A DNA stretch of 37,010 nucleotides from Coriobacteriales bacterium. GTDB lineage: Bacteria > Actinomycetota > Coriobacteriia > Coriobacteriales > UMGS124. Shown here in pieces: positions 4,735 through 36,271 of the stretch; positions within the stretch are counted from its first letter, which is position 1; each line of letters starts with the position of its first letter. A program made the translations under genes and the position numbers. The stretch covers positions 1-37,010 of the forward strand of contig JAFWFL010000058.1 of assembly GCA_017515595.1 (NCBI GenBank), given 5' to 3'. The notes under the pieces were generated by a model that was given only the letters and a program-made list of their open reading frames with translations, was not told the origin of the DNA and did not search any database.

Positions 4735-4984
4735 CCGCGCGCAGAAATCTCCCAAATGAGTTTCTTGGGCAGCATCATAAACACCCGGTTTCACGCGCGC
4801 GCACAGAAATCTCTGTTTCTTGACAACTCAAATGCGTTTGAGTTGCCTGTTTTGGAAGATAAGAAGAAGTGGCCGAGAAATACTTGCAGGTCGGAAGGCC
4901 AGGGCTTCTCGGCATTCAGAGCCAAGTGTGGGGAACTGACAACTCAAATGCGTTTGAGTTGTCAAGAAACAGAGATTTCTGTGC
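4735..4984. repeat. Nested palindromic repeat element
   Basis: A 45-base unit at 4801-4845 returns in inverted orientation at 4938-4984. Each unit begins GCACAGAAATCTCTG and ends in an internal palindrome, AACTCAAA-TGCG-TTTGAGTT. Between the arms lies a smaller inverted pair, GCCGAGAA (4872) and TTCTCGGC (4906). A truncated unit (GCGCAGAAATCTC) lies at about 4738. A degenerate copy is found at 36925-36970. No gene was seen in this 387-base gap. Confidence 0.7.
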
Positions 4985-16881: not shown

Positions 16882-18102
16882 ATGTACGACTATTCACTGG
16901 GTTCAGTTTCACAACTTACCGATAAAAAGAATAAGCCGTGGCGTGGTTGGATTCGCTACAAGGACGAGACGGGCAAGTGGAAGACAATTACCAAGGTGTT
17001 TGATTACCACACAGTTAAGAACCAGACAGACGCAGAAAAAGAAGTTGCAAAGTGGCGTGCTGAGCTTATGGTAGCACAGGAGCAGGAACACACTCAACAA
17101 AGTAGTATCTGTGTAGCTGATTATGTAGACTCTTACATTGACAACCTCGAAGCTATGCAGTCAGTGGAGCCGTCAACAATAACTGGGTATCGTGGAAGTG
17201 CAAAGTATATCCGTGAGTATCTCTCAAAAATCAAGCTAAAGGAGCTTGCACCTAGGCAAGTACAAGACTTTGAAACGGCATTGGTTAAACGCGGTTTGTC
17301 ATCTTCTACCGTTGGTAAAGCACACAGATTGCTTAAACAGGTATGTAAGCACGCCGTGGTTATTGATGACCTGGTAAAGAATCCCGTTGATGCAGTCAAG
17401 CCACCCAAACGTAAGAACACAGAACCTAATGCATTAGATGCTCAAAGCAGGGTTAAAGTTGCTGAGTATATCGACACTCACGAAGCTACCCCACAACTTA
17501 CAGCCATTGCATTGGCGTTATATGCCGGTCTTCACGCTGCCGAGTGTGCTGGGTTAAAATGGGTTGACGTTGACCTAGACGCCGCTCAGATTCGCGTTAC
17601 TGAGAGTATAGGCATGGCAAGCGGCGGCACATACACCAAAGAGCCAAAGAACGAAACCAGGCGGCGCACTATTGATATTCCTGAACAGTTGGTTAATGTT
17701 CTACGCCGCCGCCGTGAGCTTATGCAGAGTGAAGCTGCAAGCATTGGCGCAAGGCTTACCCCTAATACCTACGTTCTTTCTTATGACCTCGAACACTATA
17801 TAAACCCAAACAATCTCTCGAAAGCCTGGAAAGTAATCGGTGAAACGTTGGGTGTATGTGGTACCAGAAACAAAATCGTACGTTTTCACGACTTGCGCCA
17901 TACTTTTGCTACTGTCGCAATCGCTGCAGGTATCGACGTTAAAACAGTCTCTAGTATGATGGGACACGCAAACGCCAGTATGACTCTGAACATTTACGCT
18001 AGTAGTGACCCAGATGCTAAGAAAGCAGCAGCGGCAAAGATAGGAGACGTATACAAGAAACAAGCCGATGTTATCCCGTTTAAACGCGCTAGTAACGAGT
18101 AG
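16882..18102 (+). CDS. int: Tyrosine-type integrase
   Basis: This site-specific recombinase would move the element at tRNA-Lys. The N-terminal arm-binding part (GWIRYKDETGKWKT) is followed by a SAM-like core-binding domain (about 75-170) and a catalytic domain. Visible catalytic residues are the beta-hairpin Lys in YTKEPKNETRRR, H336-x-x-R339 (HDLR), H362 (GHANAS) and the nucleophile Y372. The first catalytic arginine, expected in the TGxR motif, is His218 (YAGLHAAECAG, codon CAC). That could disable catalysis. GAGGGG lies before the ATG. At 406 residues it is of normal length for the Tn916/phage type. Confidence 0.93.
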   Translation: MYDYSLGSVSQLTDKKNKPWRGWIRYKDETGKWKTITKVFDYHTVKNQTDAEKEVAKWRAELMVAQEQEHTQQSSICVADYVDSYIDNLEAMQSVEPSTITGYRGSAKYIREYLSKIKLKELAPRQVQDFETALVKRGLSSSTVGKAHRLLKQVCKHAVVIDDLVKNPVDAVKPPKRKNTEPNALDAQSRVKVAEYIDTHEATPQLTAIALALYAGLHAAECAGLKWVDVDLDAAQIRVTESIGMASGGTYTKEPKNETRRRTIDIPEQLVNVLRRRRELMQSEAASIGARLTPNTYVLSYDLEHYINPNNLSKAWKVIGETLGVCGTRNKIVRFHDLRHTFATVAIAAGIDVKTVSSMMGHANASMTLNIYASSDPDAKKAAAAKIGDVYKKQADVIPFKRASNE

Positions 18103-18160
18103 GTTGTAATGTGCGCCGCGCTTTAAGAGTGCGGCGCTAGTCTATTGCAAAGGAGCAATT

Positions 18161-18442
18161 ATGCAAAGTGTTCAACTCCCCATTAATGAGCATATGGACC
18201 TTGAAGAATGTGCAGTTGAGGTTTCACGTATTCATGATGTATTGGCTACTGGAATAAAGATACTATCAGACTCCGACAATAGCAGTAGTATAGCCCCGTT
18301 ACATATAACAGAGAGTGAAGCATGTGGGATGCTGGAATACACGCTTTATTCTGTCATTCAAGGGTTGCAAAACATACATGATAGCTTGGATAACATTTGT
18401 AAAGAGCATTACAGAAAACATTCACCTTGTGAGGCGGTGTGA
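18161..18442 (+). CDS. Small element-borne protein, unknown function
   Basis: A 93-residue mostly helical protein with no recognised domain. It has a good ribosome site (AAAGGAG, five bases before ATG). It follows int by 58 bases and overlaps the next gene (GTGTGA), so it is translationally coupled to it. No membrane segment is visible. It could be a regulator or accessory factor, but nothing in the sequence decides this. Confidence 0.65.
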   Translation: MQSVQLPINEHMDLEECAVEVSRIHDVLATGIKILSDSDNSSSIAPLHITESEACGMLEYTLYSVIQGLQNIHDSLDNICKEHYRKHSPCEAV

Positions 18443-19116
18443 ATATGGATAAAAGAGTTAAAGCTCATCCTCTTCAATGGAATAAGGATGGACAGAGACG
18501 GCTTGTAGAAGCTATCGACGAATATAAACGCGAGTATCACAAAAAAGAACACGGTAAAAAACATGATAAAAAAGACTATAGAGAATCTTTTGCGAAAGAA
18601 ATAAATGCGGCATTAATCGAACTCGATCCCGGAAGAAATAAAGGGTTTAAAAAAGACGCGCTTGCTCACCTGAAAAGTCACCCAGAAAATGCGGAATTAT
18701 GCCACCTTCAAGCCATTGAAAAGGTTATGGGGTGTAAAGGCTTCACTGTTGCATATATTATTTTAGGTGAAGAGTATAAAAACCTCAGCAATGCAAAATT
18801 AAACATAGAGGCACATGAAAAACGAATAGCTGTTATAGATGGGTGTATTGCTAGTGTTGCAATGCTTTTAAGTCTCAACACAGAAGAAATATTAAATATA
18901 TTATTACATATTAGATTATCAATAGAAAACTCAAAAAGTAAACTATTGGATAGTGATTCTTGCACGGGTGCACTCATAGAAATCAAAGAAGAAAGTACAC
19001 TAATCACTAAACTATATCACATAGTATTTGAAAGTATAGACCCAGACAATTCGTCTTGTATAAGCGTTGAGATGCTAAAAGAATATCTTAATAATGCAAT
19101 TCAATCCCTAGTGTAA
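18439..19116 (+). CDS. Element-borne protein, unknown function
   Basis: 225 residues from GTG at 18439 (ATG at 18445 is equally possible). The N-terminal half is lysine-rich and basic (YHKKEHGKKHDKKDY), followed by a segment that could be a helical DNA-binding region (ESFAKEINAALIELDPGRNKG...). The C-terminal half is helical and more acidic. It overlaps the preceding 93-residue gene by four bases, so the two form a pair. A regulator acting on element DNA is possible, but no known family was recognised. Low GC and rare-codon-rich composition mark it as foreign. Confidence 0.65.
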   Translation: MNMDKRVKAHPLQWNKDGQRRLVEAIDEYKREYHKKEHGKKHDKKDYRESFAKEINAALIELDPGRNKGFKKDALAHLKSHPENAELCHLQAIEKVMGCKGFTVAYIILGEEYKNLSNAKLNIEAHEKRIAVIDGCIASVAMLLSLNTEEILNILLHIRLSIENSKSKLLDSDSCTGALIEIKEESTLITKLYHIVFESIDPDNSSCISVEMLKEYLNNAIQSLV

Positions 19117-19166
19117 TAAACAAGAGTAATGAATATTATGTGAATTTAATATTACTTAAATACTGT

Positions 19167-19226
19167 AATGTGTAATGTATCTCTCATTTAAGGGTTTTAT
19201 TTAGGGAGATACATTACACATTTTTG
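19167..19226 (+). terminator. Terminator closing the integrase operon
   Basis: Perfect 17-bp arms (19167-19183 and 19206-19222) are followed by TTTTT. It separates the int group from the replication group. Confidence 0.8.
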
Positions 19227-19314
19227 TTAGTTCAAAAGATAATGCAGATTTACGTATAAAAGAAACCAGTAATTTATGCCTTGCTAATTTATATCTGTTA
19301 TACGTTTACTATGT

Positions 19315-19362
19315 TTGACATGCATATATGTATTCTCTATTCTAATTATGACACGTGTCATA
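19315..19362 (+). promoter_or_regulatory. Promoter with overlapping palindromic operator
   Basis: TTGACA (19315-19320) and TATTCT (19338-19343) are exactly 17 bases apart. Right at the expected transcription start lies the 16-bp perfect palindrome TATGACACGTGTCATA (19347-19362). This is the layout of a repressor-controlled promoter for the xis-like and replication genes that follow. Confidence 0.7.
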
Positions 19363-19393
19363 TTATTACAGTATTAAAGACAGGAGCAATAAA

Positions 19394-19588
19394 ATGCGAC
19401 GTAAATATGAAATAACAAACAAAAGTATTGGAAGCGTCAAAGATGCCGCTGAGCTTATGGGCATCTCTACACGACATGTAAACAATCTCTGTAAAGACGG
19501 CACGCTTAAGGCGGCACGGTTTGGAAGAGTTTGGCGTGTAAACCTTGACGAAATACGTAAACAGCTTGGTATTCAAGGCGGCTACTAA
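19394..19588 (+). CDS. Excisionase-family (HTH_17) DNA-binding protein
   Basis: A 64-residue protein with a MerR-like winged HTH: SVKDAAELMGISTRHVNNLCKDGTLKAARFGRVWRV. This is the helix-turn-helix plus wing typical of excisionase/AlpA-like proteins. AGGAG lies seven bases before ATG at 19394. An upstream in-frame ATG (19355) lies inside the operator palindrome and lacks a ribosome site. As the first gene behind the regulated promoter it could be the excisionase, a repressor or an activator of replication genes. Confidence 0.82.
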   Translation: MRRKYEITNKSIGSVKDAAELMGISTRHVNNLCKDGTLKAARFGRVWRVNLDEIRKQLGIQGGY

Positions 19589-19589
19589 T

Positions 19590-19943
19590 ATGAAGCGAGA
19601 ATTTACCCAAGAGGAACAATTTGAACGTGCAAAGCAGCGTATGCATGAAGCTGATGAATGGATGAATAATAATTGGGATGCATTTTGCTTTATTATCCAT
19701 CTTGCAAGTTTAGACTACAGAAGTAACCGCCCTATGTGCATGACGCGATACTTTGAGCAAGCACGCGCAAAAACTTTTACATCCCAAGACGGATCAAATA
19801 CAAAGTTTAATAACAATCTTAGGGCAGCATTAGCGCGTAAGCTGTTAGAGGCTTGTCCGATGTTCCGAGGTAAGCTCAAACTTAGAAAGTCAATATGTGA
19901 CTCGGTATATGATGCTAATGCAGGAGGCGTTCTAAATGGCTAG
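19590..19943 (+). CDS. Small element protein, unknown function
   Basis: 117 residues from ATG at 19590, directly after the excisionase-like gene and overlapping the VirE gene by eight bases. It is helical and basic towards the C-terminus (NNNLRAALARKLLEACPMFRGKLKLRKS). The middle part (SNRPMCMTRYFEQARAKTF) looks like a small winged-helix or replication accessory domain, but no family was recognised. The tight packing suggests a role with the helicase. Confidence 0.65.
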   Translation: MKREFTQEEQFERAKQRMHEADEWMNNNWDAFCFIIHLASLDYRSNRPMCMTRYFEQARAKTFTSQDGSNTKFNNNLRAALARKLLEACPMFRGKLKLRKSICDSVYDANAGGVLNG

Positions 19944-21257
19944 GGCAACTGTTGAGAATTGTTACAAATGGATACAGTCCGGTCATTACGGTATCTGTGA
20001 CGCTGTTAAACTTAACGACATAGACGGGCGTATTTATGTTACCGGTGGACTACTTGAATGGGAGCGCAATGGCACAAAGCAAGAAATACGCACATGGAAC
20101 GGAGAAGACCAGGCGAATTTTTACCGCCGTATTGAGCGTGAACTAATCGCCAACAAGTCAAACATAAACAGCGTACCACGCGATAGTGCAAACGATGCTC
20201 TTATGATTGTTGCAGGCGAACACAAGTTTAATCCTGTTGTTGACATGCTTGACAAACTACCTAGGTGGGACGGTCAAACCGCGCCATGTGATCCGTTTAC
20301 GCTCTTTCTTGGTGTAGAACCAACAGATTATAACAAACAAGTCGTATCAAATTTTATGCTTGGTGCTGTTCAAAGAGCATATGAACCAGGATGCAAGTAC
20401 GACTACATGATTATTCTAAGAGGTGCGCCGGGTATTGGTAAAGTACGTTTGTGCAACGGCTTGCAATGAATGACGAACTGTATACAGATTCTATAGTTGA
20501 CCTCACGGATGCGAAAGCATCAGAAGAAAGGGCATCAGGTAAATGGTTGGTTGAAATTGGCGAATTGTCTGCGTTATCAGGTAGCAAAAGCGTTGAAGCC
20601 ATCAAAGAAGCAATCACTCGCAGAAGTTGGGATGTGCGTTTACCCTATGACCGGCACACAACAAAAATATTACGCTCTTATGTACTCATTGGCACATCAA
20701 ACAGTGCTGGTATTCCAAACGACCACACGGGTGGCATAGCGCGACGCATGCTCCCTATAAAGTGCGGTGAGGTTGAGTGTTTCTCAGTGAGTGAATGGGA
20801 CGAGCAGGGAATAGACGAGATAATACAACAGGCATGGGCTGGTGTTATCTATTTCTATAAGGAATGTAAGCGAAAAGGCATACAGATTAAACCTACGTTA
20901 CCAGACTACTTATTGAATGACGCACAAATAGCGCGTGATGCAGCAACTATAGAAGACACAGAAGCACCGCTAATTCTAGAGTTCCTGGACAGGGCAAGAC
21001 ATGAGCACGGTGCTACTGGTTGCCCGCGTGTTTGTGTTCGCATGATAGCAGAGAACGCACTGGATATGTCGCCCGAGGAGTTCAGGCGAGGTTCTAAAGT
21101 AACTAACAAAATAACCGATATTCTGAACAATAAGGCTAAAGGTTGGGAATATGCAGGTAAGCAACGTGTCACATATAATAATAAGCAGTACGGCGTATGC
21201 AATACATGGGAGTATACAGCTTCACATGCGCCAAACATAAGCAACAAAGCAACATAA
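19936..21257 (+). CDS. VirE-family replication helicase/ATPase, frameshifted
   Basis: VirE-domain proteins are phage and satellite helicases, often fused to primases. The family signature runs WDGQ..., PGCKYDYMIILRGAPGIGK, then EIGELSALSGSKSVEAIKEAITRRSWDVRLPY, then VLIGTSN...TGGIARRMLPIKCG. The frame breaks in the Walker A motif: GGTAAAGTACG reads GKV, but one more A gives GKSTFVQRLAMND and joins the second frame at about 20443. With it the protein is 440 residues long. No primase domain precedes it. AGGAGG lies eight bases before the ATG. As written it would be cut at 177 residues, so it is either an error or a disabled replication gene. Confidence 0.85.
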
Positions 21258-26090: not shown

Positions 26091-28103
26091 TTAATCGCTC
26101 AGCTCGTACTCAAGTGCGCTCACGCAATCGCGCATTTGACGTGCCATTTCACGCGAAATGAGACCTTCGTCATAAGCTTTGGTAATTTGCTCGCGTTCAT
26201 ACTGCAGGCCAACGCGCTGAACCGCTTCTACGGAGTCTGATTTTACGAGGGCATTCTTCACTTGGGTCTTGTCAGACGTGGGCATAACGGCGGCGCGCTG
26301 GTAGTCATCGCGAACGTGGGTAATTGTTTGCGCAGGGTATTCTTCACCGGGAACCGTGGCATCAAGCTGCTCCAAAACATAGCTTGCGCAGGCACGGCGC
26401 ACTTCTGCGCGGGCTTCTCGGCGTTGTTCGCGGGCTTCTTTTGAAAGACTCAGACTCTCTAAGCCTGCCCGCCTTAAGAAACCAAACCAACCGCTCGCAT
26501 TGCGGATAAACCAGGTTGCACGTCTGTGATGGCGGAGTCTTGAGAGCTTTCGCTCGAGTTCAAGGAGGTATCCGTAGCCTACAATGGGGGTAACGGTTCC
26601 CTCTTTGATTTGATTGTTAACCGAGATCGCTTCCCAGCCAACAGCGCGTTCGCGCAGGCTCAGGTCAGATTCGTCCTCGTAGGCGGTGGTGCGCTGAATA
26701 CGTTCAATGCGCGAATTGTAGCTTGCAATCACACGGCGGACAGCGTGTTTGTCTGTCAGGGACTCGTCATGGCCAAGCTCGTAAATGACGTTTCTTAAAA
26801 CTTGGATACGACCGATGGTATCGTCTGCGAGGGTTCTCGAGACATCCTTTTTTGGCGCAACAAGAGGGACCACAAAGTTCGCGAGCAACAGGGTGACAAG
26901 AATTACTCCGGCGCCCAGGAAGATAATCAGTTCGCGGGAGCTCAGGTAAGCGCCACCTGCTGCGATTGCCGGAATCGAGAGGCAAATGGTTAGCGTAACT
27001 GCGCCTTTAGCACCGGCAAGCGTGATGATGAGCGCATTTCTCAGGTCTTCTTTGGTGAGGGTAAAACGCTTATGATCATCTTTGTCAGAAATCCAGGCAA
27101 AGAAGACGCACCAGATAAAGCGCACCAAAATAAGAACAATAGTAACCATGAGGACATAGAATATGAGCGACTCGTTGGAGTTGACGTCGCTTGCCCATGT
27201 TCTTCTCATAGAAAGCGGCAGAAGTGTTCCCAGGATTACAAAAACTACACCGTTCAGGGCAAATGAGATAACGGTCCAAACGCTGCTGCTCACAATCTTG
27301 AGCTTGGCAACGCTCGGTATCATGGACGGCTCGAGCAATGACTCGACGATCCCTGCTGCTACAACTGCGAGAATGCCGCTCACGCCCACTTCCTCGGCAA
27401 TGAGATAAAAGACAAACGGAGTCAGCAGCTGCAAAAGAACGTGGAAGGTTATGTCCTCAACGCCAAGGCGGCGGACAACATACAAAACGCCAAGCTTAAG
27501 TAAGGCCATGCCAAGACCGAGGCCAATTCCGCCCAGGAAAACCCAGATGAGCGTAGTGGTGGCATCAAAGAGGGAGAAAACTCCCGTTACAATCGCAGCG
27601 GCTGCAAACTGGAACGATACAACACCCGAGGCATCGTTGAGCAGACACTCGCCCTGGAGAAGGTTCTTGACGTCTTTTCTGAAGTTGATGGTTTTAGAAA
27701 GTGTACTCACCGCTACGGCGTCTGTTGGGCCCAGAGCCGCTCCGAGTGCAAACGCAGCAGCCAGCGGGATGGACGGAATAAGCCAATGGGTAAAAAAGCC
27801 AATTACCAGCACAATGAGAATCACAAGACCCAGAGCATAATTAATAATGGGCTTCTTCTGCTTCCAGAGCATCTCTTTGTCTGACTCAATGGAATCCCAG
27901 TACAAAAGCGGCGCAATAAAGAACATCAAAAAGAACTCGGAGTCAATGCCTGAAGTGTTATAGTGGATTTGCGGTAAGAGCACCAAAAGGACACCCAGAA
28001 CAATCTGGATAAGCGAAGCAGGTATTTTGGGAAACATTTGTGATAAGGCCGAGGAAACCAAAACGGCGCCCAGCAGCCAAAACGCAATATAAACAATCCC
28101 CAT
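26091..28103 (-). CDS. CPA1-type Na+/H+ antiporter (NhaP/NhaK-like)
   Basis: An integral membrane exchanger for pH and sodium homeostasis. About twelve hydrophobic segments fill residues 1-420. The CPA1 motifs GAALGPTDAVAVS and ECLLNDASG are present, the latter carrying the ion-binding Asn-Asp pair. The remaining ~250 residues are a charged, helical cytoplasmic tail (ISVNNQIKEGTVTPIVGYGYLLELERKLSR...), as in bacterial NhaP2/YjcE-type proteins. Start ATG at 28103 has AGGA nine bases upstream. It is probably a single transcript. Confidence 0.92.
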   Translation of the reverse strand: MGIVYIAFWLLGAVLVSSALSQMFPKIPASLIQIVLGVLLVLLPQIHYNTSGIDSEFFLMFFIAPLLYWDSIESDKEMLWKQKKPIINYALGLVILIVLVIGFFTHWLIPSIPLAAAFALGAALGPTDAVAVSTLSKTINFRKDVKNLLQGECLLNDASGVVSFQFAAAAIVTGVFSLFDATTTLIWVFLGGIGLGLGMALLKLGVLYVVRRLGVEDITFHVLLQLLTPFVFYLIAEEVGVSGILAVVAAGIVESLLEPSMIPSVAKLKIVSSSVWTVISFALNGVVFVILGTLLPLSMRRTWASDVNSNESLIFYVLMVTIVLILVRFIWCVFFAWISDKDDHKRFTLTKEDLRNALIITLAGAKGAVTLTICLSIPAIAAGGAYLSSRELIIFLGAGVILVTLLLANFVVPLVAPKKDVSRTLADDTIGRIQVLRNVIYELGHDESLTDKHAVRRVIASYNSRIERIQRTTAYEDESDLSLRERAVGWEAISVNNQIKEGTVTPIVGYGYLLELERKLSRLRHHRRATWFIRNASGWFGFLRRAGLESLSLSKEAREQRREARAEVRRACASYVLEQLDATVPGEEYPAQTITHVRDDYQRAAVMPTSDKTQVKNALVKSDSVEAVQRVGLQYEREQITKAYDEGLISREMARQMRDCVSALEYELSD

Positions 28104-28379
28104 CAGGTATGTCCTAACAAAACAACTCTATAAAACGACTCGACTCGCTAATGTAACGTCTTTCTGTACGCGAAACTTCAAATCTTAAACAGAGCAATTT
28201 TATGCCATAGAGCAAAAACATCTATGGATAGATACTGAAGCAATGATAAACACAAAGAAAAGCAGATTATCAAGATGTGAAGACAACCAGAACAGCTTTT
28301 ATGTTTCAAATAACACATCTTTAAGACTCTGATAATCCAATCACAAACAGGCCCATGTCGATTATTGACGAAACCCCGG

Positions 28380-28748
28380 TTTACGGAAAACGCTTTGGCA
28401 CAACTCAAACTTTACGCAATTGTCGGTGGATAAGATCTGGGTTTTCGTAAGGATGGGTGGATAAGATCTGGGTTTTCGTGAGGCGCTCTGCCACAGATCC
28501 TCGTTTTCGAGAGGATTTTTGGGCTTCTCGGCATCTTGCATTTTTAGTACGTAGGTATTTACCAGGTATATTGTAAAATGCCGAGAAACCCTTCTCTTCA
28601 AAATCCTCTCGAAAACGAGGATCTGTGGCAGAGCGTCTCTCGAAAACCCAGATCTTATCCACCCATCCTCTCGAAAAGGCAGATCTGCGCCAAAGAGCCT
28701 CACGAAAACCCAGATCTCATCCAACAACCATTGCGTAAAGTTTGAGTT
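28380..28748. repeat. Palindromic element built on a 31-bp period, copy A
   Basis: The TTTTCG/TTTACG boxes start at 28380, 28411, 28442, 28473 and 28504. On the other side the complementary CGAAAA/CGTAAA boxes start at 28610, 28641, 28672, 28703 and 28734. All steps are exactly 31. The halves are inverted around a core with TTCTCGGCAT (28525) and ATGCCGAGAA (28578). The consensus unit is AGATCTGGGTTTTCGAGAGG plus 11 variable bases. The outer ends (28402-28416 and 28734-28748) are perfect inverted repeats. No coding sequence is supported. Confidence 0.88.
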
Positions 28749-28775
28749 TTACCATTGATTAATTCTCAACATGAA

Positions 28776-28823
28776 AAGAGGATGAGTATTTGTCGCTAGT
28801 AGGTGACCAATACTCATCCTCTT
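28776..28823 (-). terminator. Terminator of the second flavoprotein gene
   Basis: A 15-bp perfect stem (28776-28790 with 28809-28823) is followed by TTTTC on the minus strand, about 70 bases past the stop codon. Confidence 0.8.
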
Positions 28824-28891
28824 ATTTCATTTAGGGATGTTCTTCACGTTCCCTGATGGTTTTAAAGTCTTTATTGAAGTATTCTGTTTGC

Positions 28892-30726
28892 TTATTTCTC
28901 AAGCCCAAAGCCGGCGTTTTGTGCGGCGCGGAGGCCGGCGTTGCGACCAAACGTCATGCAGTCGCAAATCGCGTTACCACCAAGACGGTTGTTGCCATGA
29001 ATACCACCGGTTACTTCGCCTGCTGCGAACAGGCCGGCAATAGGCTCTCCGTCTGCGGTCATTGCCTGAGAATTAATGTTAACACGGACACCGCCCATAG
29101 TATGGTGAACAGTGGGAACCTTCTTACAGGCATACCAGGGACCTTCGACTAACTGGACATCGTTTGAATTGGTAGCCTGGAAGCCAAGCGGGTCTTCAAG
29201 CTCACCGGCAACAACTGCATTGTAGGTATCAATGGAAGCCTGGAGCTTCTTGGCATCCATACCGGTTGCGGCTGCAAGTTTCTCAATGGTATCGGCAGCA
29301 ATAACGTTGCCCAGAGCAATCATGTCGCCCATGCGCTGTCCATCCTTGTCAAAGTCGGTCAGGTTGGGGTAGCGTACCTTATTAACAACAATCCAGTAAG
29401 TAGCGCCGGGCTGTTCAAAGATAGCCTTGCACAGGGTATCGCGCTTGGCGCCTTCGTTTACAAAGCGGTCACCGTCAACGTTTACAAACACACGGTTGCG
29501 GCCAGAGGTACGGACATCCTTCATAAGGCCGGTACCGGGGGTGCCGCATGATGAAGCTGGATGTCGGAGAGGCCAATGAGCTCTGCGCCTACAGCCTCTG
29601 CCAAACCGAGGCCATCGCCCTGTGCGCAGGGGTTGATGTTGGTGCATCCAATGCCGGAGTCAAGGGTAACCTCTGACCATACGCCGTCGTTGACTGACTG
29701 GCGGAACTCAATATTAGCGCCAAAACCGCCGGTAGCAAGCACTACAGAAGCTGCGTGTACTACAACCTCGGAGCCGCTCTTGTGTTCGCCGCGTACTCCA
29801 ATTACGGCACCATTTGCATCAGTGATAAGCTCAACAGCCTTGGTACCACCCACAATGGTTACCTTGTCGGGATACAGATCAAAGTAATCGCGGAAGGTAT
29901 CTGTATAACCAACACCGGCCGGCTTTGCGGTGTAGTGACTGCGCTCGCCAAGGGAGCCGGTTGCTGAGCTGACCTGCAGCTTAAATGCGCAGCCGAGGTT
30001 CTCGAGCCATTCAACTGATTCCATGGCATGATCAGTGAGGAAGTGAATAAGCTCGGGGTCGCCCTTTTCACCGCCACCGGTGAAAGTTGACTCGTAGAAC
30101 TGCTCAACTGAGTCTTCAATGCCCTGCTTTTCCTGACGGTAGGGGTCAACAGCATTAAGTGCACCGCCGGAAACGTTGGTGGAACCGCCAATGATGTCAA
30201 CCTTGTCCATAATGACAACCTTTGCACCGGCTTGTGCAGCGCGGATAGCAGCTACGCACCCGGCTCCACCTCCACCAACAACACAAACATCAGCGGTATA
30301 CTCGGCCTCGGGAACCACGTGCTCTGCTTCGCGATCTAAAAGATATGCATCAGCACCGGCCTGTGCTGCGCAGTCCTCAACGCCCAAAAGCAGGGCAAAG
30401 CTCGAGATGGTTGCGCCGGCAATGGTATCTACATTAAGAGACTGGTTGGCGATGATGGAGCGAGAGAGCTTGCCGAGAGCCCATGCGCCAACGCCGCGCG
30501 ACTCAAGGTTACCGGTTACATCAATATCTGCCAAAGCGCGCTCGGTAAATGTGCAGGTAACGGTAAAGGGAGCATTATGACCGTTAACGGTGGCCTGGTA
30601 TTTACCGGCAATAAAGTCACCGGTCTCATCTGCACCGGCGCTAACTGCTCCGGCCATGCATAAAGCGCTTGCTGCGCTTGCAATACCAAGGTCCTTAACA
30701 AAAGTTCTGCGATTCATCTTTTTCAT
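28892..30726 (-). CDS. Tat-exported FMN/FAD flavoprotein reductase (fumarate/urocanate reductase type), frameshifted
   Basis: A Tat signal (NRRTFVKDLGIASAASAL) is followed by an FMN-bind domain with the flavinylation site DTIAGATIS (T106). Next come the FAD domain (VCVVGGGGAGCVAA, 148-160) and active-site segments (RTSGRNRVFVN, HHTMGGVRVN, GNNRLGGNAICDC). The covalent FMN, attached by ApbE, passes electrons to FAD. The frame breaks at about 29550: ...DIQLH should continue CGTPGTGLMKD, which lies in the other frame. One added C (giving Pro) restores 611 residues. As written it would be truncated in the FAD domain. It is divergent from a membrane LuxR gene. The substrate is unknown. Confidence 0.88.
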
Positions 30727-31102
30727 AGTACCTGCCTACCTTTCTTATGGTTTGCTGTGTGTTGGCGTACCCATGTACGCCTCCGTGATTAACATCAACG
30801 CTTTCTGAAGGTTGTCCTTGCGAACGTTGTGATGATTGAATCTTACGCACTCGGATGGTCATTCCGCTTCCTGCAAGAGGAATGGTTGTGGCAAAAAATG
30901 TCGCCTGGCAGGCATGAATTTATCTCACCTGAAAAGAATGAGATTATGTTAACCTGCGGTTTTGCAATTTGTGGTTGATGAACATTGAGAATCAGTGCAT
31001 TCCACAGGGCTTGAGAAATTGATACAATTCGTTACATAAAAGATTTTGTTTGAACGGTCCATAAGGCCGCATATTGCGAGAGTAGTAGTAGGAGGCAATG
31101 CC
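30727..31102. promoter_or_regulatory. Divergent control region of the second flavoprotein/LuxR pair
   Basis: This 376-base region must contain both promoters. It includes AT-rich stretches and short T/G-rich words. No clear operator or -35/-10 pair was found, and the tandem 9-mer of the first locus is absent. The ribosome site AGGAGG for the LuxR gene is at its right end. Confidence 0.35.
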
Positions 31103-32638
31103 TTGATTCCTCGTTTGCTTTCTTCAAAAGAAGGATGGTTTTTAATTCTCGGCTGGGCGCTTGTGTGGATGGGGCTTGAAAAAGCCTTTTACGGAGAAGC
31201 TGTATTTAGCTATTCGAGTAACACAACCGGGTTGTGGGCTTATGCAGTATTGCTCATAGTTATGGTAATAGCCTCAGTGGCTATTCCGCTGTTAGAGAAA
31301 CCTTTTTTGCATGTTAAAACAGGTTGTTGGGGGATAATCCTTGCGGGCGCATTATCTTCCTGTGCACTTGGCGCATGCATGCTGTTGCTTCGCGATTCAG
31401 AAGACCCAAATCGCGTAGGACTTGTTGCTGCTGTTATAGTCTATGGAATTTCTTCGTGTATTTTGTTTGCGCTTTGGGCTGTACGCCTGCGCGATATGGT
31501 TTTTGACCATGGTCTTCCATCAGTGCTTATTGCCTGCCTGGTAGGTATTGCTCTCAGCTTCCTTTTGGTTCCCAGCTCTTTGCGCATGTCTGCATATGGC
31601 CAGGTTGTTGTTCAGATGAGCGGCTTCTTGTCAAGCATATTCCTGATTTTGCTGGGCAACAGTACGTATAAAGAGCATAACGAAGCATTTGGCAATGACG
31701 CTGAAGCCTCAAGTACTTCTCGTGAAATTGTGCCGGAATCTGCAGGATTCCACATTAATCCTCTGGCATTGAGTGTTGCAATGTTGACTATGCTCTCTTT
31801 TTTGATTCACCTTTTGGGGTACTCCGAGTATATTGGTCCAGGGTATGTTGCGATCCAAGCGGAGGACGCATATTGTTTTGCTGCTCTCTTTGCGGTGATT
31901 TTTATCCTCATAATCGCAGCTTTACGCATGGACAGTCTCTCCTATGCCGGAGACCGGCTTTTGCTGTACCTTTTTACCGCGAGTGTACTCTTTACCTTTG
32001 TAGTATTCTTTATGATGCTTTCTGCGGTAACCGTAAACACACTCTTCTCGTATGCGCTCACCAAGCTTTTGCGCCGTATTATAAAAATAGTAGTATTCTT
32101 CATGCTCGCGTCTGTAGTTTATCAAAGCAATCTTTCTCCAATAAAAGCATTTTGTCTTGCGCTGCTTCTGCCAACCATAGCCGCAAAGCTCACACAAATT
32201 CTTTTGTCTACCTTTATTACGTTTGATACCGGTACTCTGGTCTTGTATTACTCGGTTACCGGGTTTTTGCTCGTATTGTTTTTGTGCCTCTACTTTGTCT
32301 TCTATATCAGAGGAATGCTTGGGTTCTTTGCCCACGAAACTGAAGATACCCAGAGCGAAGCGGTAGTGCAGCAGGACGCTCTAAATACCAATACAGATCC
32401 CCATGAAACCGCGCTCGCACATTGCGTAGACAAGTACAAGCTAACAACCCGCGAAAGTGATGTTATGGGTTTTCTCGCCAAAGGATATAGCATTCAAAAA
32501 ATATCCGAGAAACTCTTTATATCCGAGAATACCGTCAAGACTCATATAGGCTCAATCTATAGAAAAACAGGCCTCCACTCCCGTCAGGAGATCATTGACC
32601 TGGTAAGCGACGCCGGCACCGGTAAAAACAAGAACTAG
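31103..32638 (+). CDS. Second membrane protein with LuxR-type HTH
   Basis: Same architecture as the protein at 696: about twelve membrane helices, then a cytoplasmic linker and a LuxR/GerE HTH (LTTRESDVMGFLAKGYSIQKISEKLFISENTVKTHIGSIYRKTGLHSRQE). TTG at 31103 is preferred because AGGAGG lies seven bases before it; the TTG at 31046 has no ribosome site. The resulting length is 511 residues. It is divergent from the FMN/FAD flavoprotein and most likely controls it. Sequence similarity to the first LuxR protein is clear in the HTH but low in the membrane part, so the two probably sense different ligands. Confidence 0.87.
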   Translation: MIPRLLSSKEGWFLILGWALVWMGLEKAFYGEAVFSYSSNTTGLWAYAVLLIVMVIASVAIPLLEKPFLHVKTGCWGIILAGALSSCALGACMLLLRDSEDPNRVGLVAAVIVYGISSCILFALWAVRLRDMVFDHGLPSVLIACLVGIALSFLLVPSSLRMSAYGQVVVQMSGFLSSIFLILLGNSTYKEHNEAFGNDAEASSTSREIVPESAGFHINPLALSVAMLTMLSFLIHLLGYSEYIGPGYVAIQAEDAYCFAALFAVIFILIIAALRMDSLSYAGDRLLLYLFTASVLFTFVVFFMMLSAVTVNTLFSYALTKLLRRIIKIVVFFMLASVVYQSNLSPIKAFCLALLLPTIAAKLTQILLSTFITFDTGTLVLYYSVTGFLLVLFLCLYFVFYIRGMLGFFAHETEDTQSEAVVQQDALNTNTDPHETALAHCVDKYKLTTRESDVMGFLAKGYSIQKISEKLFISENTVKTHIGSIYRKTGLHSRQEIIDLVSDAGTGKNKN

Positions 32639-32862
32639 TTATAGAAAAGGTATCTGAAAAATCAGAGTACTGGTTTTAAACGATGTTCTACATCCCTTTT
32701 CCCGGCATCTTTATAACAAAATTCACATATTCATATATCCTACAAATACTAAATCTTACTAAGCTGTTTAGCTGTACTGTTAGGTTTCTGTAAAGGTGCT
32801 CTTTATACGGCACGTTTATTGTTATATAAGGATAATTTTGTTTTGTAGTAGCATCCAAGGTT

Positions 32863-33861
32863 ATGGATACTCAACAGTTGATTTTTACGGACAATTCAGC
32901 TCTACGTTTCTGGCGATGGCAAAGATACTCTCTGTCACCGCTCAATATTTCGTATGCCAAAAACGTACCTGATCTAACAAACCTAGCACATACCCGTAAA
33001 GAGATTGATGAATTAACCTTAACCGTAGCCCACACAGCATGCTCATCCCAGGAACAATTATTTACCAACCAGCTTCATGTTGTTGCCCAAGATTGGATAT
33101 CAAGAAATCGCCTACAAAATGTCGCATATCATGTATGTAATTTACCTTGGGTCAAGCAAAGTTTCTGTGAAATACTTCCTAATGTCTTTGTATTGTCTCC
33201 TGAAGCTTGTTATGCGCAAATAATCACAAAACTAAAATTTGAATTTCAACTGATTCTGGGCATGGAATTCTGTGGATCTTATGCGTATGATCTAGAGAGG
33301 AATGCCTATATATATGGTCAAGCTCCCATAACATCAACCAAAAAGCTTAATGATTATAATCAATTAATAGTTCAGAATGGTGATAAAAGGAGTAGTAAAC
33401 TTCCGCTCGAGTTGATCTCTGATGACTCAGCATCATATATGGAAACATGTATAACTTTACTATTGTCTTTGCCATACCGTCGAGGTGGATACGGTCTCAA
33501 ACTTCCATGGTTAAACCCGAGTATTAATAAAAACGGTTTGAGGGTTCCGGATTATACACCCGGTAGTTATAAACCAGATCTATTCTGGCCACAACATATG
33601 ATAGCAATAGAGTATAACAGTAAGGAGTTTCATCAGCAGCGTGATTCATATGCCGATGATACAAAACGGCGGGCATTTCTCGAAAGCCTTGGTATAGAAG
33701 TCATACCGTTGATGAGCACTGATGTATACAACATCCAGGTATTTGATACACTTGCACAATATCTCGCGAAGCGAATGGGCAAACGGTTGCGCTTGCCCGC
33801 AGATTTCTCTGAGCTTCACCAAAAGCTGAGAGCAACAATCCTCAAGAAATCTTCCTACTAA
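32863..33861 (+). CDS. PD-(D/E)xK nuclease-like protein (DUF559/Vsr-like C-terminus)
   Basis: 332 residues. The C-terminal ~100 residues resemble the Vsr/DUF559 nuclease fold: YKPDLFW (P238, D239), MIAIEYNSKEFH (E250, H257), then DDTKRRAFLESLGIEVIPL. The N-terminal two-thirds is a domain seen in many coriobacterial proteins but without a known function. The ATG has only a weak, close AAGG upstream. It stands alone between the LuxR gene and a large palindromic repeat, at lower GC than its neighbours, which suggests acquisition. A role in DNA cleavage or defence is inference. Confidence 0.7.
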   Translation: MDTQQLIFTDNSALRFWRWQRYSLSPLNISYAKNVPDLTNLAHTRKEIDELTLTVAHTACSSQEQLFTNQLHVVAQDWISRNRLQNVAYHVCNLPWVKQSFCEILPNVFVLSPEACYAQIITKLKFEFQLILGMEFCGSYAYDLERNAYIYGQAPITSTKKLNDYNQLIVQNGDKRSSKLPLELISDDSASYMETCITLLLSLPYRRGGYGLKLPWLNPSINKNGLRVPDYTPGSYKPDLFWPQHMIAIEYNSKEFHQQRDSYADDTKRRAFLESLGIEVIPLMSTDVYNIQVFDTLAQYLAKRMGKRLRLPADFSELHQKLRATILKKSSY

Positions 33862-33914
33862 AAATAGCAAAGAACTTGCCTTACGATAGTTTTCTAGATG
33901 AGATTCCGATATAC

Positions 33915-34390
33915 GTAAAACACTCTGTCACAGATCCGGGTTTTCGAGAGGATTAGTGGATAAGCTTGCTGTTTTCGAGAGGTTTGACGGATGAGATCCG
34001 GGTTTTCGTGAGGATCTGTGGATGAGATCTGGGTTTTCGAGAGGCGCTCTGCCACAGATCCTCGTTTTCGAGAGGATTTTTGGGCTTCTCGGCATTGTGC
34101 ATTTTTAATGCACAGGTATTTATCTGGTATTCTGTAAAATGCCGAGAAACCCTTCGCTTCAAAATCCTCTCGAAAACCTAGATTTGCGGCAGAGCGCCTC
34201 TCGAAAACCCAGATCTCATCCACAGATCCTCTCGAAAACCCGCATTTATGACAGAGCAACTCTCAAAAAACTGGATCTCATCCCACAATCCTCTCGAAAA
34301 CTCGGATCTGTGACAGAGAGCCTCTCCCAAACCTGGATCTCATCCAACAATCTTTCGTAAACCGGGAACCTCTCGCAAAGTGTGATTTGT
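33915..34390. repeat. Palindromic element built on a 31-bp period, copy B
   Basis: TTTTCG boxes start at 33941, 33972, 34003, 34034 and 34065. Complementary CGAAAA-type boxes start at 34171, 34202, 34233, 34264, 34295 and 34326. All steps are 31, and a further degenerate box lies at 34356. The ~90-base core (34070-34160) is near-identical to that of copy A and holds TTCTCGGCATT/AATGCCGAGAA and an inner TGTGCATT/AATGCACA hairpin. The unit consensus is the same as in copy A. Short ORFs in it rotate frame, because 31 is not a multiple of 3. Confidence 0.9.
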
Positions 34391-34480
34391 GCCATTGGCG
34401 CGCAACACCAAAAAGAGGTTATAGATGGCTGCTCTGGCAGTATTCTATTCAATTGGTTTCTGATTAGTGACACAAAAAAA

Positions 34481-34508
34481 CCGGGTGCGCCTAGTTAGAC
34501 ACACCCGG
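34481..34508 (-). terminator. Terminator of groES-groEL
   Basis: The stem CCGGGTG/CACCCGG is followed on the minus strand by a run of seven T. It lies about 130 bases beyond the groEL stop codon. Confidence 0.8.
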
Positions 34509-34575
34509 CTATTGTTTGAACTGAGGTTTTGGCTTTAAGGTAGTTTATGCATACATCTTAAAGCCTTGGGTTAAA

Positions 34576-34661
34576 GTCGGCTTTTGTGGATTAGTACATG
34601 CCGCCTTGGCCCTGGTAAAACTCGGCTTTTCTTAGATTAGTACATGCCGCCTTGGCCTTGG
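34576..34661 (-). repeat. Duplicated 3' end of groEL
   Basis: Positions 34589-34615 repeat 34635-34661 with one mismatch over 27 bases. The similarity extends to about 42 bases (CGGCTTTT in both). The downstream copy re-encodes the GroEL tail GQGGMY and a stop codon, after the true stop. Confidence 0.85.
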
Positions 34662-36271
34662 GAGGCGGCTGCGGCTATGGCATCCTCAATGGTGGTGTCC
34701 TTGGGGACATCGGTCACGGTTGCCTCGGTGATGAGGATGAGGCCGGCGATGGAAGCAGCGTTCTGAAGAGTGATGCGGCTTACCTTTACGGGGTCGAGAA
34801 CACCCATCTCAATCATGTCGCCCCACTTGCCGCTTGCGGAGTCAAGACCGCTGCCGGGCTCGAGGCCGCGGACCTTCTCGACTACTACCTGGCCTTCATA
34901 GCCGGCATTTGCGGCGATGGTGGCAACAGGAGCGGTAAGAGCTTTCCTGATGATGTTGATACCAATGATCTCATCAGGATCAGAGGTCTCAATCTTGTCG
35001 AGAGCAGGGAGTGCGTCCATAAATGCGACGCCGCCACCGGCTACAATGCCTTCCTCAACGGCAGCACGGGTTGCCTGGAGAGCGTCCTCGATACGGTGTT
35101 TAACTTCCTTCATCTCAGACTCGGTAGCAGCGCCAACCTTGATCACGGCTACGCCACCGGAGAGCTTGGCCAGACGCTCCTGGAGCTTCTCGCGGTCAAA
35201 GTCGCTCTTGGTGTTCTCCATCTCGCCCTTGATCTGGGCAATACGGCCGTCGATAGCCTCCTTGGAACCTGCGCCGCCAACAATGGTGGTGTTGTCCTTG
35301 GTGATCTTGATGCTCTTAGCGCGGCCGAGCATATCAATGGTAACGTCAGCAAGCTTGGAGCCAAGGTCGCTCATAACGGGCTCAGCGTCGGTAAGGGCAG
35401 CGATGTCCTCGAGCATGCGCTTACGACGGTCGCCATAACCAGGAGCCTTAACAGCAGCGATGTTAAGGGCGCCGCGGAGCTTGTTGAGAATAAGGGTTGC
35501 GAGAGCCTCGCCGTCTACGTCCTCGGCAACAATTACGAGCGGACGGCCTGAGCGCATAACGTCCTCAAGCAGGGTTACGATATCCTGGACGTTGCTTACC
35601 TTTTGGTCAGTTACGAGGATGTACGGATCCTTGAAGTTGGCTTCCATACGCTCGTTGTCGGTTGCGAAATAGGGTGAGATGTAGCCCTTGTCAAACTGCA
35701 TACCCTCAACGGTGTCAATGTCAATACCAAAGGTCTGGGACTCCTCGACGGTGATAACGCCGTCCTTGCCCACAACCTCCATAGCCTCAGCGATCTTGTT
35801 ACCAATGTTATCGTCGCCGGCGCTGATGGTACCAACAGAAGCGATTTGATCCTTAGAAGAAACCGGCTTTGCGGCTTCCTTCATATAGGTAACAACGGCG
35901 TCAACAGCCTTGTCAATACCACGGCGGATAGCAAGCGGGTTTGCACCGGCGGTAACGTTGCGCAGGCCCTCATTCACAATGACCTGGGCGAGAAGGGTTG
36001 CGGTAGTGGTACCGTCGCCAACGAGGTCATTGGTCTTGGTAGCAACCTCTTTTACAAGCTGAGCGCCCATGTTCTCGATGTTGTCGGCAAGCTCGATCTC
36101 CTTAGCAACCGAGACACCGTCGTTAGTGATGGTGGGAGCGCCATAAGAACGCTGCAGTGCAACATAGCGGCCCTTGGGACCCATGGTTACGGTTACTGCA
36201 TCTGCGAGGGTGTTTACGCCCTTTGCAAGCTTTGCACGAGCCTCTGCGTTAAAAGCAATTTGCTTTGCCAT
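34637..36271 (-). CDS. groEL: Chaperonin GroEL (Hsp60)
   Basis: The 14-mer folding chamber. The start [18 protein letters not shown] at 36271 is canonical; an upstream TTG in frame (36295) lies in the ribosome-site region (GAGGAGG, about 11 bases before ATG). [25 protein letters not shown] and [12 protein letters not shown] form the ATP site, and the tail ends GQGGMY. It has 544 residues, the usual length. The stretch [17 protein letters not shown] differs from the common GPKGRNVVLEKSFGAPT. It is cotranscribed with groES. Confidence 0.97.

Follow-up and report, generated by a model that had tools for sequence, protein, structure and literature searches.

Organization of the two palindromes

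The window (the whole stretch of DNA analysed, 37,010 nucleotides from the genome of a Coriobacteriales bacterium) contains two long palindromes composed of 31-bp units, here called boxes, on either side of a core. The first of these, copy A (28365-28754), is flanked by two minus-strand genes, one for a sodium/hydrogen exchanger (26091-28103) and one for a FAD-binding flavoprotein (from 28892 onward), and was delimited from a box matrix, the sequence itself and the inverted arms. Its left arm (28365-28519, plus strand) consists of boxes that begin at 28365, 28396, 28427, 28458 and 28489 in the box matrix; its right arm (28600-28754, minus strand), read from matrix and sequence, has boxes at 28600, 28631, 28662, 28693 and 28724, the last of which (28724-28754) is clear by eye with a score under the cut-off. 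Thus, copy A possesses five boxes per side at a step of 31 bp with no slip, as the preliminary description had it. The 80-bp core (28520-28599) holds the inverted pair GGGCTTCTCGGCA / TGCCGAGAAACCC and the loop ACCAGGTA; the core word GGGCTTCTCGGCA occupies 28521-28533 on the plus strand and its inverted partner, GGGTTTCTCGGCA, 28579-28591 on the minus strand. An outer perfect inverted repeat, described earlier as 15 bp long, is indeed present and is longer than claimed, at 19 bp (28402-28420, plus, and 28730-28748, minus, as read from the sequence).

Copy B (33895-34394) sits between convergent genes, ahead of a chaperonin gene, and the box matrix identifies it, as had been proposed, as a second element of the same kind with the same 80-bp core (34081-34160, words at 34082 and 34140). 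The starts of the innermost boxes are 111 bp apart in both copies. Copy B has six boxes on the left, the outermost being weak, and seven on the right. On the right side six boxes follow one another at a step of 31 bp and the seventh comes after 48 bp; copy B therefore has one phase slip. Open frames of 121 amino acids overlie both copies and are treated as chance. Elsewhere in the window, a small island at 16882-21257 encodes a tyrosine integrase and a VapE-like primase/helicase; the gene of the latter is divided, at about 20451, between two frames that overlap.

A dispersed family restricted to one lineage

Copies A and B are members of a family that extends across the genome and has a common core and three classes of box; this family is absent from the preliminary description. 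A BLAST search of copy A against its own genome (3.30 Mb in 134 contigs) returned 30 matches on several contigs, a spaced pattern with three mismatches allowed returned 33 as compared with none for the reversed control, and a joined query of three divergent members revealed further matches. In all, 24 regions of this genome hold boxes, and a core is recognisable by eye in 18 of them. A 31-column matrix, refined on the same 24 chosen regions that it then scored, found 137 boxes in them against 0.2 in shuffled sequence; because of this difference and of the folding of 28427-28724 (z -20 with RNA as with DNA parameters), chance can be excluded. When 60 genomes were searched with a model of box pairs (dimers), built from 43 pairs, the bacterium's own genome gave 58 matches, all of them inside the 24 regions, and the remaining 59 gave none.

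The phylogenetic distribution of the family is narrow. Among 395 genomes of the order, searched with stricter filters and with 13 candidates scored per genome, the family was found in its own genome only, the exception among the 394 others being a single borderline match in G372 (E 9.7e-4). Two exact-pattern scans of a named genome collection, in which the patterns were narrow and records near the window were possibly excluded, returned nothing; neither the plasmid and phage collections nor viral scans with the Y-box pattern gave a match, and a match in viral contig L077 was rejected as an unrelated chance array. The absence of the family from the other genomes searched indicates that it spread within this lineage.

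Every copy lies outside called genes, and tandem, convergent and divergent settings occur alike, some being judged from one neighbour only where the contig ends; such all-intergenic, all-orientation placement is what one would expect if insertions persisted where they had fallen between genes. The pairs of copies that were compared are 67-96% identical, and no two copies are near-identical over their full length, so recent movement is not seen. Together with this divergence, the existence of half copies (C59, C20b, C26) and of a coreless copy (C132) indicates that the family is decaying. Two further partial copies, C57 and C133, are probably the halves of one copy split between contigs. The outer flank of C60 is, by eye, common to C79, and C60 may be an allele of the C79 copy that was broken by an insertion-sequence gene. 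At this locus (L083, near 32214 of contig C60) an IS1634-type transposase gene cuts the box array, as judged by eye, and the flank stands without the insert at the end of contig C79; alleles or a mixture of strains are therefore likely there.

Boxes, cores and symmetry of the arms

Each arm contains one to seven boxes. These are of three classes that grade into one another: X (AGATCYGGGTTTTCGAGAGG), a Z-like class of outer boxes (TGGCACAGATCCCGGTTTACGAGAGG) and Y (TGGCACAAACTCGAGCGTTTGCACAACCCGC). The Y boxes are inner wherever they are present together with X or Z. The outermost boxes often begin 5'-TGGCACAGATC, beside unrelated flanks, and the start of transposon ends resembles this beginning. 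Conservation is uneven along a box: some stretches approach 2 bits, and others next to them vary. The X-type cores are 80 bp long in all four that were aligned and the Y-type cores 108-112 bp in 11 of 11, as delimited here, a delimitation that takes in an extra inner box, decayed in most. Both types carry the inverted pair GGGYTTCTCSG..CSGAGAARCCC, from which single copies deviate, enclosing a loop that reads CCAGGTA or the complement of this. In most Y cores the abundant word discussed below is represented by a variant, GGGTTTCTCCG, and not by the word itself.

The two arms of a Y element resemble each other more closely than they resemble the arms of other Y elements (78.0% against 73.5% over two boxes); of 20000 shuffles, the observed likeness was reached by 23 with two boxes, 95 with three and 1281 with one. 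For the four X elements, where the comparison has little power, the corresponding values are 1 of 24 at three boxes and 18 of 24 at one. This likeness fits repair or conversion between arms as well as a hairpin constraint, two causes that are inseparable here.

Arms that are alike within elements and a very stable fold (z -20) are also what might be seen if a transcribed long hairpin RNA, regulatory or double-stranded, were the selected product. The same z, however, is obtained with DNA parameters, no Rfam match occurs in 28100-34700, the copies lie in all gene orientations, and steps of 31 bp have no obvious meaning for RNA pairing. Thus, an RNA product appears very improbable.

Spacing and divergence

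Of 96 intervals between neighbouring boxes on the same strand, 86 are exactly 31 bp, and the remainder are 32 (two), 33, 38 (two), 45, 47, 48, 52 and 62 bp. Counted outward from the core in core-bearing elements, intervals of 31 bp make up 32/32, 21/24, 15/17, 7/11, 3/3 and 0/1, and the average number of differing positions between neighbours ranges from 8.7 to 13. The phase is thus kept strictly beside the core and is looser outside it. The preliminary description had predicted many substitutions and few indels within units, and this is borne out beside the core, where all 32 first intervals are exact although neighbours there mismatch at 8.7 positions on average, and more weakly farther out, where four of the 11 fourth intervals and the only sixth interval depart from 31 bp (inner two against outer, Fisher p=0.033). 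Raw pairwise alignments speak against the prediction, with 19 gaps to 300 substitutions in X and 201 to 2913 in Y, but these gap counts are judged unreliable as some palindromes are reversed and box numbers differ.

By parsimony on a tree, the inner two boxes of both arms have undergone 208 changes (32 in X, 176 in Y) with no change in box-to-box length and one internal 1-bp deletion, in C91, found by eye; the cores have undergone 171 changes (17 in X, 154 in Y) with six length changes on the tree, lengths being read from the alignment. The contrast between arms and core (Fisher p=0.056 for Y alone, p=0.051 for X and Y together) suggests, without proving it, that the spacing of the boxes is under selection, as had been supposed earlier, and the differences between boxes may predate dispersal. 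A dead element would not require phasing this strict beside the core once its copies had diverged so far, a point against the MITE-like reading given below. A 119-bp palindrome family of the same genome was considered as an unphased control and found unsuitable: among seven listed complete copies six are 119 bp long and one is 118, a second, partly overlapping list again has six of 119 bp, and because its length is kept too, it is no neutral control.

Exact spacing beside the core in 32 of 32 cases and the patterned conservation within the box would also be consistent with a host-maintained nucleoprotein site, at which a chromosomal protein would occupy phased boxes at about 20 places and thereby shape or partition the chromosome. 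Against this, the copies differ in box number, in orientation to genes and in core, some of them are halved or degenerate, relatives among the searched genomes live without the family, and the members of four pairs stand no more than 6 kb apart, which would be a strange arrangement for a site that acts across the chromosome. An origin as a host site is accordingly regarded as unlikely.

The core word

The 13-mer GGGYTTCTCSGCA is found exactly at 4902, 28521, 28579, 34082 and 34140 in the window, where seven more sites have one mismatch. It occurs 234 times in its own genome, and 250 and 240 times in G005 and G037, two distant genomes of one genus in another family; the control count is 1 in each, and the remaining genomes of the 60 searched have 16 copies at most. 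The 9-mer TTCTCGGCA ranks first among all 9-mers in its own genome (127 against 27 expected in a 430-kb sample) and likewise in G037 (143 against 11 expected in 400 kb), with 84 of 127 and 106 of 143 sites, respectively, in called coding sequence. Along the sampled stretches of G037 it stands on both strands in both halves with no strand polarity. A replication-polar (KOPS-like) word was accordingly rejected, a plus-strand-only listing for G037 being taken for an artefact. Being the most over-represented word, dispersed in and between genes and free of replication polarity, the core word looks like a DNA-uptake sequence, a candidate function judged on sequence features. To our knowledge, uptake-like words have been described in Gram-negative families, and literature searches found no publication on uptake sequences in the order of this bacterium.

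The same word is found in other palindromes of this genome. It stands mid-palindrome in both the 119-bp TGCAAGTT..GACGGG family and the TGACTACTCAAATGCG family, and in several copies of the 119-bp family, whose arms are TGCAAGTTNTGACGGG, the word is followed by AAAGNCCAGGTA; it is as if other palindrome families had adopted the same word trick repeatedly. The 119-bp family is the second palindrome family of the genome, present for example at L149, L156 and L239, with arms TGCAAGTTNTGACGGGYGCTAGCATGA and with CCAGGT as well as the word inside. In a third family, copies of the palindromic TGACTACTCAAATGCGTTTGAGTAGTCA flank a hairpin that holds GCCGAGAAGAACCCGCAGGTCAG..GGGCTTCTCGGC, at sites near 4902 in the window and at L130, L132, L084 and L240.

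An abundant word in inverted pairs raises the alternative of REPIN-type mobility, in which a RAYT (Y1 family) would move the core hairpin as single-stranded DNA and the arms would be baggage or stabilise the hairpin. The genome has six RAYT-sized Y1 transposase genes (Y1_Tnp matches above the cut-off), three of the six have exact core words no farther away than about 1.2 kb, the words form inverted pairs near the genes at C105 and C4:23452 (at the latter with two mismatches in one partner), and an element can fold into a single long hairpin through its nearly complementary arms. However, with one exact 13-mer for every 14 kb or so of the 3.3 Mb, the words found near RAYTs are little more than chance would give. 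The repeat is moreover not confined to extragenic DNA, as the coding-sequence sites of the 9-mer demonstrate, and this abundance in genes weakens the REPIN reading. Two of the six RAYTs bear ends of their own (GGGACGGTTCTT/AAGAACCGTCCC), and cores without arms are absent from the sampled sequence except for C110, which has one box. We know of no counterpart of the 31-bp arms in REPINs or BIMEs. As outlined in two accounts of REPINs and BIMEs (PMC3116915, PMC3733652), these resemble the present family in the inverted pairs of an abundant short word and in the presence of RAYT genes; they differ in that the word of the family is also found inside genes. Taken together, REPIN-type mobility is doubtful. 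The RAYT-like Y1 genes flanked by GGGACGGTTCTT / AAGAACCGTCCC are L168 and L169 (C4:10958 and C4:23452), and at L169 the abundant word lies within the flanking hairpin on both sides.

Relation to known mobile elements

The ends of the transposons Mu and Tn7 contain several transposase-binding repeats each, and box sequences such as TGGCACAATCTTGACCG resemble the ends of IS21. A similar organization is described in one account of IS21, whose ends hold the transposase-binding repeats L1/L2 and R1/R2 (PMC11208146). All three share with the family ends that start 5'-TG and are built of repeated boxes, whereas the arms of the family face a short core and not genes. Membership of the arms in IS21 was rejected because istB is absent above the cut-off, with one sub-threshold match in the genome, and because in nine relatives the boxes at the ends of IS21 have other sequences and, where repeats are visible, a step of roughly 20-25 bp by eye. 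At the istB loci of relatives the box matrix found isolated single matches only and no array.

Elements of the FB type carry 31-bp repeats. The Foldback/Galileo-type elements of Drosophila are described as having long inverted arms (PMC3573991). Like those of the present family, these arms are composed of short tandem repeats, but the elements are eukaryotic and much longer, and a relation in sequence is not expected.

With bacterial MITEs the family has more in common: both are short and non-coding, with inverted ends, many dispersed intergenic copies and decayed members. Here the multiple short copies with inverted ends are spread over 24 regions between unrelated flanks, and the family displays recurrent ends, phasing and a common core, as well as decayed and half copies. 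A family that is non-coding, intergenic, restricted to a lineage and variable in length, with recurrent ends and decayed copies, follows a MITE-like pattern. The family differs from bacterial MITEs in that its ends are long arrays of 31-bp boxes and in that neither a target duplication nor an autonomous partner was found. No target-site duplication is visible by eye at the listed outer flanks, the copies being old and their ends decayed, and in the genome, which is 97.7% complete, the box-pair model detected no autonomous element that combines these boxes with a transposase gene; the partner transposase families searched there were IS21 istB and Y1.

The palindromes are thus best read as a new, phased variant of the MITE-like element, that is, as old non-autonomous, non-coding mobile elements whose ends would be phased arrays of protein-binding sites; a probability of about 0.5 is attached to this explanation. 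Each element has one to seven inward-pointing 31-bp boxes per side around a self-complementary core of about 80 bp. As the step is near three helical turns, the repeated sites would face the same side of the helix, and a single DNA-binding recombinase or transposase bound at the boxes would form two facing protein arrays. We infer that the elements once moved, that a protein binds the boxes and that this binding is the cause of the phasing. An extension of the MITE-like reading, in which the phased arms form two facing protein filaments and the uptake-like word of the core aids re-entry by transformation, is quite unlikely; copies from lysed cells would then be taken up preferentially and re-enter the population by transformation.

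Literature searches found no publication on 31-bp phased bacterial palindromes. The presence of the core word in two families of an order judged from gene content to be actinobacterial would make directed DNA uptake directly testable there. A bacterial element whose end repeats keep their helical phase as their sequence changes would offer a natural experiment in the reading of spacing by multi-site recombinases.
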